The notes under the pieces are model-generated. The model searched no databases, was not told the DNA's origin, and saw nothing but the letters and a program-made list of their open reading frames with translations. A DNA stretch of 64,000 nucleotides, from positions 1,302,001 to 1,366,000 of the forward strand of contig NZ_CP137642.1 of assembly GCF_033472595.1 (NCBI RefSeq), written 5' to 3'. Position numbers and translations under genes: made by a program. How positions within the stretch are numbered: the stretch's first letter is position 1; each line of letters starts with the position of its first letter. Below are positions 24,665 to 27,774 of the stretch, piece by piece. Origin of the DNA: Methanoculleus receptaculi. GTDB taxonomy: Archaea > Halobacteriota > Methanomicrobia > Methanomicrobiales > Methanoculleaceae.

Positions 24665-25273
24665 CTACCCCTGGTGTTTTCCGCAGAGATACCGCTGCAC
24701 CAGTGCCAGTTCTTCGCGTGTGTTGATGTTGAAGGCAAGGCGCCGGTCATGCAGGAGAACCTGCACCTCCTCCTCTGGTATCCCCGCTTCGCGGCTGGCT
24801 GTCAGGATGTTGACCCCGGCGGGGCATGCGGGAATGCCGTCGATGACCTCTGTGTAGTGTGTGCGGCAGCCATGTTCCAGACAGAGATCGCGGGGCACCC
24901 ACGTGGAGCATGCCGGCAGCCCCGAGCGGCGCCAGGCGGCCTCGATATCGGCGATGATATCGACTGTGAGGCATGGCAGATCGGAGACGCAGGTGAAGAG
25001 GGGTTTTCCTTCCTCCTCAAGGTCGGCCGCAGCGGCATTGATATCCTCAACGTAGCCAAGCCCCTTTGTGTCGTAGATGGTGACGCCCTGCGCCCGGCAC
25101 CAGTTTTTTGTGAACGGCGTCCGGTGCGAGGCCACAACGACCACTTCATAGCCTGCGGCAAGAAAGGCGTCGATCACATAGGAGACCATCGGTCGCCCGC
25201 AGATGTTTACAAGCGGTTTTTCACCCATCCCGAGCCTGGATCCCTCTCCCCCGGCCATGATCAGTGCAAGCAT
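24665..25273 (-). CDS. cobY: Adenosylcobinamide-phosphate guanylyltransferase CobY
   Basis: CobY transfers GMP from GTP to adenosylcobinamide phosphate in archaeal cobalamin synthesis, a non-orthologous replacement for bacterial CobU. The 202-residue protein starts with the nucleotidyltransferase loop LALIMAGGEGSRLGMGEKPLVNICGRPM and has the metal-binding CVSDLPCLT. It overlaps the end of the cobD-like gene by 13 bp, so the two are translationally coupled. A second conserved block is HYTEVIDGIPACPAGVNIL, also seen in the archaeal family. Confidence 0.92.
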   Translation of the reverse strand: MLALIMAGGEGSRLGMGEKPLVNICGRPMVSYVIDAFLAAGYEVVVVASHRTPFTKNWCRAQGVTIYDTKGLGYVEDINAAAADLEEEGKPLFTCVSDLPCLTVDIIADIEAAWRRSGLPACSTWVPRDLCLEHGCRTHYTEVIDGIPACPAGVNILTASREAGIPEEEVQVLLHDRRLAFNINTREELALVQRYLCGKHQG

Positions 25274-26262
25274 GCCTCAAGAGCCTCGATGAGTTGCCTG
25301 TTCTCCTCACGGGTTCGTACAGCCACACGGATGTGCCGGGGGAGCCCGAAAGACCGGCAGTCCCGCACCAGGATGCCCCGCGAGAGGAGCCGTTCGCTGA
25401 GCACTCCCGACTCCAGCGGGATCCCGACCAGGATGTAGTTTGCCGAAGGTGGGACGCAGACGAGACCGAGACCCTCCAGCCTCTCAGAAAGCCAGGCCCT
25501 TTCTTCTGAAATCCGCTTCCTTGACTCTTCCAGGCGATCGTAGTGGCGGAAGGCCTCGATCGCAAAGGACTCGGCGAACGTATTCACCGTCCAGGGGAGG
25601 CGCACCCTCTCAATCCTATCGATAAGTTCAGGGCTGCCAAACCCGTATCCGAACCGGATCCCAGGGACGGCAAAACTCTTTGTCAGGGATCGCAGCACGA
25701 AGAGTTTCTCGTGTGGTAGATCGACCAGACTCTGGCGGGGGTCAGCAAGTTCGATGAACGCCTCGTCAAGGAAGAGGTAACCCCCACGCCCGGCGACCGC
25801 ATCGAGCACCCGGAAGACTTCTGCGTGGGAAAAGAGAGTTCCCGTGGGATTGTTCGGGTTGCAGAGAAACCTAACGGTGGCGCTGTCGTCCCCTGTGACG
25901 CATCTCCCTCCGGCAAGCCTCACAGCCACCCCGTACTCGGCAAACGTGGGCATCTCGATACAGGCGGCGTCGCCAGGTCCGAGCATCGCGCAACAGAACG
26001 CGCGGATCAGTTCGACCGATCCGTTCCCGACTGCCACCTCCGCGGCATCGCGCCCGAACGTCCTGGCGATCACCTCTTTTAGTTCTTCATACCGGTCGTC
26101 GGGGTAATCTTTCAGTGCAGAGAGATCCGGTATCCAGGGGATATCGGGAGGGTATGGGTTCATGTTCGCGCTGAAGTCAAGCACCGCATCCCTCATCCCG
26201 CGGCTGCGATGCCAGCGCACCCGGCCGCCATGTTCTGCTCTCTCAGGAAGATACTCTCGCAT
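25261..26262 (-). CDS. cobD: PLP-dependent aminotransferase-fold enzyme, likely threonine-phosphate decarboxylase CobD
   Basis: CobD makes (R)-1-aminopropan-2-ol O-2-phosphate, the cobalamin linker, by decarboxylating threonine phosphate. The product is a class I aminotransferase-fold protein of about 333 residues starting MREYLPERAEHGGRV, with the N-terminal LDFSANMNPYPPDIP typical of CobD/CobC. It has CNPNNPTGTL, FLDEAFIEL, and the PLP lysine in VLRSLTKSFAVPGIRFGYG. HisC is the main alternative. Overlap with cobY by 13 bp supports CobD. ATG 26262 is preferred; the open frame extends 13 codons to a TTG at 26301. Confidence 0.82.
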   Translation of the reverse strand: MREYLPERAEHGGRVRWHRSRGMRDAVLDFSANMNPYPPDIPWIPDLSALKDYPDDRYEELKEVIARTFGRDAAEVAVGNGSVELIRAFCCAMLGPGDAACIEMPTFAEYGVAVRLAGGRCVTGDDSATVRFLCNPNNPTGTLFSHAEVFRVLDAVAGRGGYLFLDEAFIELADPRQSLVDLPHEKLFVLRSLTKSFAVPGIRFGYGFGSPELIDRIERVRLPWTVNTFAESFAIEAFRHYDRLEESRKRISEERAWLSERLEGLGLVCVPPSANYILVGIPLESGVLSERLLSRGILVRDCRSFGLPRHIRVAVRTREENRQLIEALEACLH

Positions 26263-26343
26263 ATCGATGGCAACTCTTTGAGGATATTTTGTCGTCTGCA
26301 ACCAATAAAATCGTTATCCCGGCCAGAAAAAAATATCGGCAGG

Positions 26344-26445
26344 TTTATATCCAATACCAATGCTATTATGGCTTATCTGATACAGTCAGACATATAGACA
26401 ACAAATGTCTGACAATTGTCTGCTTTAGAGCAGCCAAGTGTCAGA
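26344..26445 (+). promoter_or_regulatory. cdrS-ftsZ promoter with clustered TGTCTGA inverted repeats
   Basis: A TATA box, TTTATAT (26344-26350), is followed by a dense cluster of operator-like sites. GTCAGACA at 26385-26392 is the exact inverse of TGTCTGAC at 26406-26413. The perfect palindrome GACAATTGTC spans 26411-26420. Further half-sites are TGTCTG at 26417-26422 and TGTCAGA at 26439-26445. The starts at 26406 and 26417 are 11 bp apart, one helical turn. They lie where transcription would begin and run up to the start of the ribbon-helix-helix gene, as expected for an autoregulated promoter. Confidence 0.7.
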
Positions 26446-26462
26446 TATGAGTGGATGGAATG

Positions 26463-26639
26463 ATGGATCGGATCACTATCAGATTGCCACGACAGCAGGT
26501 TGAGATGCTCGAGAAGCTGGTGGAGGCAGGTGAGTTCCCCACGGTATCGGAGGCTGTGCGGTATTCTGTCAGAGCGCTTCTTGAGAAGTATGGAGACCGT
26601 GTCATGCGCGAGGCGGATCAGATCTCATTCAACGGTTAG
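26463..26639 (+). CDS. cdrS: CdrS-like ribbon-helix-helix transcription regulator
   Basis: This protein of 58 residues is a single ribbon-helix-helix domain: strand [18 protein letters not shown], then helix [25 protein letters not shown]. CdrS is a small RHH regulator that in haloarchaea sits just upstream of ftsZ2 and controls cell division genes. Here it lies 10 bp upstream of ftsZ, the same arrangement. ATG 26463 is used; ATG 26460 and GTG 26451 are in frame. No strong ribosome site precedes them. The family name rests on size, fold and position; a search would confirm it. Confidence 0.85.
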
Positions 26640-26649
26640 GAGGTATATG

Positions 26650-27774
26650 ATGCAGACTATCATTAACGAAGCGTTGAAGCACGCAGAACGTGAGAAATAC
26701 CTGAAATCGGAAACGGATGAGGTCGAGGATGACATCCTCGGCCAGCCGCGCATCGTCATCGTGGGGTGCGGTGGTGCGGGGAACAACACAGTCAACCGCC
26801 TTTACCACATGCAGGTCAGCGGTGCCGAGACCATCGCGATCAATACGGACAAACAGCACCTGGACATGATCCGCGCCGACAAGCGGGTTCTTGTCGGCAA
26901 GTCGCTCACCAAAGGCCTTGGCGCCGGGGGGTTCCCTGACATCGGCAGGCGCGCGGCCGAGATGGCCCGGCCGACCCTGGAGACTCTACTCTGCGATGCG
27001 GACCTGGTTTTCATCACCGCCGGTATGGGTGGGGGTACCGGCACGGGCACAGCCCCGGTCATCGCGCAGATTGCAAAGGATCAGGGGGCGATCGTTGTCG
27101 GGATGGTCAGTTATCCCTTCCAGGTTGAGAAAGCCCGGCTTCTCCGCGCGGAAGAGGGGATGGAAGCTCTCTCTAACGCTGCCGACTCGGTTATTGTGCT
27201 CGACAACAACCGCCTCATCAAATTCGTCCCCAACCTGCCGCTCGGTCAGGCGTTCTCGGTGATGGACCAGCTCATCGCGGAGACCGTGAAGGGCATCAGC
27301 GAGACTATCACGGAACCGTCGCTCATAAACATCGATTACGCTGATGTGCGTGCCATCATGAGCAAGGGTGGTGTTGCCGTTATGCTAGTCGGCGAGAGCA
27401 AACAGCAGAACAAGGCCGAGAGCGTGGTTCACGAGTGTCTCAACCACCCACTGCTGGACATCGACTACCGTGGAGCAACGGGGAGTCTCATCCACATAAC
27501 CGGTGGCAACGACCTGACTCTCCAGGACGCAGAGGAGATCGCAAGCTCTCTGACCTACGAACTTGACCCCCACGCGGACGTCATCTGGGGAGCACGGGTG
27601 AACAGCGACTTCGAAGGTAGAGTCCGTGTCATGGCGATCATGACCGGTGTGAAAAGTGCACAGATCCTCGGAAACCATCGCGCCTACGATCAGGCCTTAC
27701 CAAGGCCTGCGGTATCAGCAAACAGGCGCATGGCAAGGGATGCCGCGAGCGGCCACCTTATTGATTTTATCTGA
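26650..27774 (+). CDS. ftsZ: Cell division GTPase FtsZ
   Basis: This tubulin-like GTPase forms the division ring. Its 374 residues include the GTP-binding [17 protein letters not shown] near residue 35, the tubulin signature [19 protein letters not shown] near 120, the T7-loop region [17 protein letters not shown], and a normal C-terminal domain ending in the short tail ASGHLIDFI. The ribosome site GGAGG at 26639-26643 is 6 bases before ATG 26650; ATG 26647 is the alternative. It directly follows cdrS and probably shares its promoter. N-terminal [20 protein letters not shown] is a helical extension typical of archaeal FtsZ. Confidence 0.97.

Follow-up and report, generated by a model that had tools for sequence, protein, structure and literature searches.

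A phased GTCWGAC array between the promoter and start codon of cdrS-ftsZ in Methanoculleus receptaculi, a probable operator for a CdrS-like ribbon-helix-helix protein

Introduction

Autoregulation by ribbon-helix-helix (RHH) proteins is a kind of control already known. The RHH autorepressors Arc, MetJ, CopG, Omega and the ParD-type antitoxins bind tandem short palindromic subsites, with one dimer at each, and the half-sites of Arc are approximately 11 bp apart.

The RHH proteins closest to the one considered here are those of the haloarchaeal division genes. In Halobacterium salinarum, CdrS activates ftsZ2, and the cdrS-ftsZ2 promoter is bound, as proven by ChIP, by CdrL, which is reported from Halobacteria only (PMC7439475). 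In Haloferax volcanii there are 18 CdrS ChIP sites, with ChIP-seq peaks at ftsZ1 (motif 50 nt ahead of the start) and dacZ (47 nt); the cdrS promoter is not among them, and the synthesis of cobalamin is implicated as a process that CdrS activates (PMC8406309).

Here we describe a row of short palindromes in the cdrS-ftsZ leader of the methanogen M. receptaculi, located in a 64-kb stretch of DNA (the window) that was analysed as a whole. We consider it probable that the row is a CdrS operator through which the operon represses itself. No description of a methanogen cdrS operator, of its architecture or of its contrast with the haloarchaea was found in the open-access library searched.

Results

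The features of the locus are collected in Table 1. The 59-residue product of the first gene of the operon has a single RHH_1 domain (PF01402; 30.4 bits against a cut-off of 20.5), and its beta-strand reads R-I-T-I-R. The best NCBIfam match is NF058555, a model named for the haloarchaeal CdrS proteins, with 58 bits and thus under the cut-off of 100; for this reason we term the protein CdrS-like, and we base its assignment on synteny together with the evidence from the operator given below. Sequence matches in the PDB are limited to weak ones to ParD-type antitoxins. The protein is 98% identical to that of Methanoculleus sp. Yes49-05, the nearest relative in the genome set. The ftsZ gene starts approximately 10 bp past the cdrS stop codon on the same strand, and FtsZ is found downstream of cdrS in nearly all related loci examined; a second FtsZ is encoded elsewhere in the host genome (G000:757342-758397). 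On the other side, the intergenic region is shared with a gene for a CobD-like aminotransferase (271 bits to TIGR01140, under the cut-off of 290.55), and this divergent arrangement with cdrS is seen at 63 Methanomicrobiales loci. On this side, several Methanoculleus have a GTCAGAC unit directly after a conserved ATAAAAC-N2-TTAT block; the unit is degenerate in the host (26305-26330).

Table 1. Features of the cdrS-ftsZ locus (positions in the window; fractions of 7 are matches to GTCWGAC).
Feature	Position	Strand	Basis
CobD-like aminotransferase gene, divergent, common intergenic region	25261..26262	-	best match TIGR01140 (CobD)
ATAAAATCGTTAT, conserved; probable TATA region of the CobD-like gene	26305..26317	-	sequence, related loci
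TTTATAT, TATA-like element of the cdrS-ftsZ promoter	26344..26350	+	read in sequence
Leading unit ATCTGAT	26375..26381	+	ATCTGAT in 22/27, GTCTGAT in 2/27 aligned leaders
Unit GTCAGAC, 7/7	26385..26391	+	identical in 21/27 aligned leaders
Empty register position, 2/7	26396..26402	+	register scoring, 27-leader alignment
Unit GTCTGAC, 7/7	26407..26413	+	GTCWGAC in 27/27 aligned leaders
Unit GTCTGCT, 5/7, 11 bp past the 26407 unit	26418..26424	+	register scoring, leader alignment
Unit AGCAGCC, 4/7	26429..26435	+	register scoring, leader alignment
Unit GTCAGAT, 6/7, adjoining the ribosome-binding region	26440..26446	+	identical in 22/27 leaders
cdrS-like gene, 59-aa RHH protein, proposed reader of the array	26460..26639	+	Pfam RHH_1
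ftsZ, cdrS-linked FtsZ2 type	26650..27774	+	TIGR00065, 419.8 bits

The array lies between the TATA-like box and the cdrS start codon at 26460. A preliminary description of the region, which placed the repeats in 26344-26445, had reported an inverse pair, a palindrome, an 11-bp spacing and two further half-sites, and each of these is present in the sequence: GTCAGACA (26385-26392) and TGTCTGAC (26406-26413) are exact reverse complements, GACAATTGTC occupies 26411-26420, residues 26401-26411 are directly repeated at 26412-26422, and AGCAGCC (26429) and GTCAGAT (26440) precede the cdrS start. The array itself ends at approximately 26447, slightly past that span. The repeats are best read as 7-bp GTCWGAC pseudo-palindromes, mostly in one 11-bp register (units beginning at 26385, 26407, 26418, 26429 and 26440), with the ATCTGAT at 26375 standing 10 bp ahead of the next unit and so 1 bp off the register. 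The unit at 26407 forms the core of the leader's only exact TGTCWGACA (26406-26414), and three units of the host array are weak (4-6 of 7). The row is the top 7-unit array of the window, scoring 33 when started at 26385 and 31 when started one unit earlier (mean across the window 14, SD 3.1). With a TATA-to-transcription-start distance of approximately 25 bp, transcription is predicted to begin near 26372-26376, which would place the array over both the start site and the leader. A TATA-like box is found at the corresponding place in most related leaders.

The array is real and deeply conserved, from order- to phylum-wide. The cdrS upstream regions of Methanomicrobiales, whose comparison the preliminary description had proposed, contain it in 64 of 64 leaders tested. 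In this set, TGTCWGACA-type 9-mers (≤1 mismatch) occur 2.66 times per 110 bp, compared with 0.016 in shuffled sequence and with 0.11 in the 90 bp before the leaders, so that the unit is enriched more than 100-fold over shuffles and approximately 25-fold over the adjoining 90 bp. The spacings between units are 11, 22, 33, 44 and 55 bp, and one of the eleven possible phases dominates when 95 leaders are considered (best phase 15.7, second 3.9, average other phase 1.0). Arrays are also found before cdrS, with FtsZ downstream, in families f7, f8, f18, f19, f28, f30 and f31, and in these other families of the phylum they are nearly always 3' of the TATA box and ahead of cdrS-ftsZ. Chance repeats are ruled out by the conservation and by the shuffle controls.

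Palindromes in a leader can form hairpins in the mRNA, and the repeats might act beside the ribosome-binding site to control translation or the processing of the RNA, with the symmetry of the DNA as a by-product. We regard this as quite improbable. Although the host leader folds better than its shuffles (z = -3.3; single relatives, -2 to -6.5), the predicted folds differ between relatives, and the unit centers switch between A and T. One stem has a weak excess of covariation (3 of 500 shuffles), but the covariation term of the consensus RNA, in which 80% of cells are paired, is just -0.32 kcal/mol. Post-transcriptional regulation of cdrS-ftsZ2 has been suggested in H. salinarum (PMC8303175); against a function in RNA, the units are also found 5' of haloarchaeal ftsZ1 promoters, in DNA expected to be untranscribed, the conserved 11-bp register is unexplained by an RNA fold, and there was no Rfam match. 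The palindromic row may still make some contribution at the RNA level, a reading to which we give less weight.

The array is well supported as an operator for a CdrS-type RHH protein, a part of the preliminary description that stood, and CdrS is its most likely reader. One line of evidence comes from the promoters bound by CdrS in Haloferax. A tandem GTCWGAC-N4-GTCWGAC site, which we infer from promoter sequence to be the CdrS motif, is found at the ftsZ1 promoter in 14 of 15 haloarchaeal genomes (≤3 mismatches; 12 with ≤2), where a conserved GGGGAAAGATAATTAA block typically comes straight after it. Across 50 kb of dacZ loci there are only five tandem sites with ≤2 mismatches, all of them just 5' of dacZ (5 of 15 genomes). 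The tandem unit common to the ftsZ1 and dacZ promoters provides an indirect link between the array and CdrS binding in vivo.

A second line comes from covariation between protein and DNA. The central base of the unit tracks the residue that makes the first contact in the beta-strand of CdrS: Arg occurs with A/T in 98 cases and with G/C in 5, and Lys with G/C in 24 and with A/T in none, so that R-x-T-x-R proteins pair with TGTCWGACA and the K-x-S-x-R proteins of family f9 with TGTCSGACA. The Lys-G/C association comes mainly from one Lys clade (f9) and two f31 loci, and thus represents few independent events. In the f9 loci (L204-L207, L212-L230), the TGTCSGACA sites lie directly 3' of the TATA box.

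Finally, the array follows the presence of cdrS. At ftsZ loci without cdrS, array scores are mostly 3-6, about what shuffled sequence gives (95% = 6), compared with 13-20 where cdrS is present. The ftsZ locus of genome G051 (L327; G051:C1:1269931-1270956 and upstream) has a frame-broken but alignable cdrS remnant and a decayed array scoring 11, and three congeners with intact cdrS have arrays scoring 18-20. These observations also bear on whether another DNA-binding protein reads the array, as CdrL does at the Halobacterium cdrS-ftsZ2 promoter. That precedent, a ChIP-proven binder at the equivalent promoter, speaks for the idea, but we consider it highly improbable here: CdrL is reported from Halobacteria only, loss of cdrS goes with an absent or decaying array, the array's center covaries with the CdrS strand, and the CdrS-bound haloarchaeal promoters bear the GTCWGAC unit too.

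With CdrS as the probable reader, the geometry of the array suggests how it could work. One CdrS dimer would occupy each 7-bp unit through its antiparallel beta-strands (R-x-T-x-R), and the 11-bp repeat would bring neighboring dimers almost onto one face of the helix, where they could bind cooperatively. The row runs from approximately the predicted transcription start to approximately 12 bp short of the cdrS start codon. CdrS bound there would block RNA polymerase, and the resulting self-repression of cdrS-ftsZ would fix the level of both CdrS and FtsZ.

That CdrS represses its own operon had been proposed in the preliminary description; we infer it from the position of the sites, as the sign of control was also read in Haloferax (PMC8406309). 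The units are 3' of the TATA box in the host and in nearly all methanogen leaders, and 5' of it at haloarchaeal ftsZ1, so that the usual position rule points to repression in the former and activation in the latter. The opposite sign, in which CdrS activates its own operon in a positive feedback as at the haloarchaeal division genes, appears unlikely to us. It has precedents in the activation of ftsZ2 in Hbt. salinarum (PMC7439475) and in the lowering of ftsZ1 and HVO_1885s when Hfx. volcanii is depleted of CdrS (PMC8406309), and some Methanoculleus have an extra site 5' of the cdrS TATA box; however, all host units are 3' of the TATA box and span the predicted start and the leader, which is the usual place for repression, and the sites at the activated haloarchaeal genes stand 5' of it. 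Because CdrS activates ftsZ2 in Halobacterium and its own promoter is off the Haloferax ChIP list, the haloarchaeal circuit is not directly transferable to the methanogens, in which we favor autorepression of cdrS-ftsZ.

The preliminary description had also suggested a scan for sites near other division genes, and none were found at the ftsZ1 or sepF promoters of the host genome. Across 35 Methanoculleus genomes, cdrS is the only place with the 20-bp tandem site (≤2 mismatches), a further pointer to CdrS as the reader, which makes CdrS in this genus look like a self-regulator, unlike the wider regulator of the haloarchaea. Tandem sites with ≤1 mismatch number 3-14 genome-wide in haloarchaea (control, 0-3), a count not very different from that of the ChIP sites (18); the host array is weaker, and for this reason the host genome has none at this threshold. 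In the 1.98 Mb of the host genome there are just five places with exact TGTCWGACA (control, 1); those away from cdrS comprise one within atpB, one between genes for two ribosomal proteins, one in a gene for a sugar dehydrogenase and one in an intergenic region (L254). A wider regulon in the host was rejected, as these other exact sites are away from the ftsZ1 and sepF promoters. Two further tandem sites with 3 mismatches (L117, L118) are at genes other than division genes. The intergenic TGTCTGACA of L254 (approximately position 1501; G000:C1:1187773) has a second partial unit approximately 21 bp off and lies 5' of the TATA box of a minus-strand 104-aa ORF; it is possibly a second CdrS target.

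Discussion

How the amount of FtsZ is set in archaea is poorly known, and the array offers a concrete, deeply conserved candidate operator with a named reader. It leads to a prediction of specificity at a single residue, in which an R to K change would shift the preferred center from A/T to G/C (TGTCTGACA versus TGTCGGACA), and the cdrS pseudogene of G051 with its decayed array amounts to a natural knock-out. The array also suggests a path by which a regulator of division, acting on itself in methanogens, could have gained a wider role among the haloarchaea.

A joint reading that goes further, and that we hold to be doubtful though conceivable, is that the array at cdrS switches in two directions, between division and cobalamin, and was later rewired in haloarchaea through CdrL. 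In the first part, CdrS would repress cdrS-ftsZ and activate the divergent CobD-like gene, tying division to the supply of B12. In the second, CdrL, with the altered half-site GTAAGAC, would have taken over cdrS and freed CdrS for broader regulation.

In its architecture, the host array resembles the operators of the known RHH autorepressors, consisting of palindromic subsites phased in an 11-bp register at the gene's own promoter, and, as expected of a tandem operator of this kind, which overlaps or follows the promoter, the sites are 3' of the TATA-like box, at the predicted start. Unlike cdrS-ftsZ, the genes governed by Arc, MetJ, CopG, Omega and the ParD proteins belong to phages, plasmids, methionine metabolism or toxin-antitoxin pairs; the host locus has neither a toxin nor a plasmid context.

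The likeness to haloarchaeal CdrS lies in the small size of the RHH protein and in its gene standing immediately 5' of ftsZ2 (PMC8406309, PMC7439475), and in the GTCWGAC-N4-GTCWGAC arrangement that the Haloferax targets ftsZ1 and dacZ share with the host array. Unlike the methanogen protein as proposed here, haloarchaeal CdrS is described mainly as an activator, binding mostly 5' of other genes' promoters; the methanogen sites are 3' of cdrS's own promoter and, at ≤2 mismatches, nowhere else in Methanoculleus. As in the control by CdrL in Halobacteria, an RHH-domain protein would act at the cdrS-ftsZ promoter (PMC7439475). The haloarchaeal cdrS promoters, in families that we call haloarchaeal by CdrS type and kinship only, bear GTAAGAC-N4-GTCTTAC, with approximately four half-sites in most families; the half-to-half offset is 11 bp, as in the methanogen array, but the half-site is GTAAGAC/GTCTTAC, and GTCWGAC pairs are absent from those examined. 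These promoters (L192-L203, L210, L211, L237-L251) often also have a lone GTCTTAC ahead of the start. Haloarchaeal CdrS retains the R-x-T-x-R strand although the palindrome at its own promoter differs, a point that counts against the reading proposed here. As CdrL is the proven binder in Halobacterium and is reported only from Halobacteria (PMC7439475), the GTAAGAC sites are plausibly its own, and if so, the operator would have been re-assigned after the methanogen-haloarchaea split.
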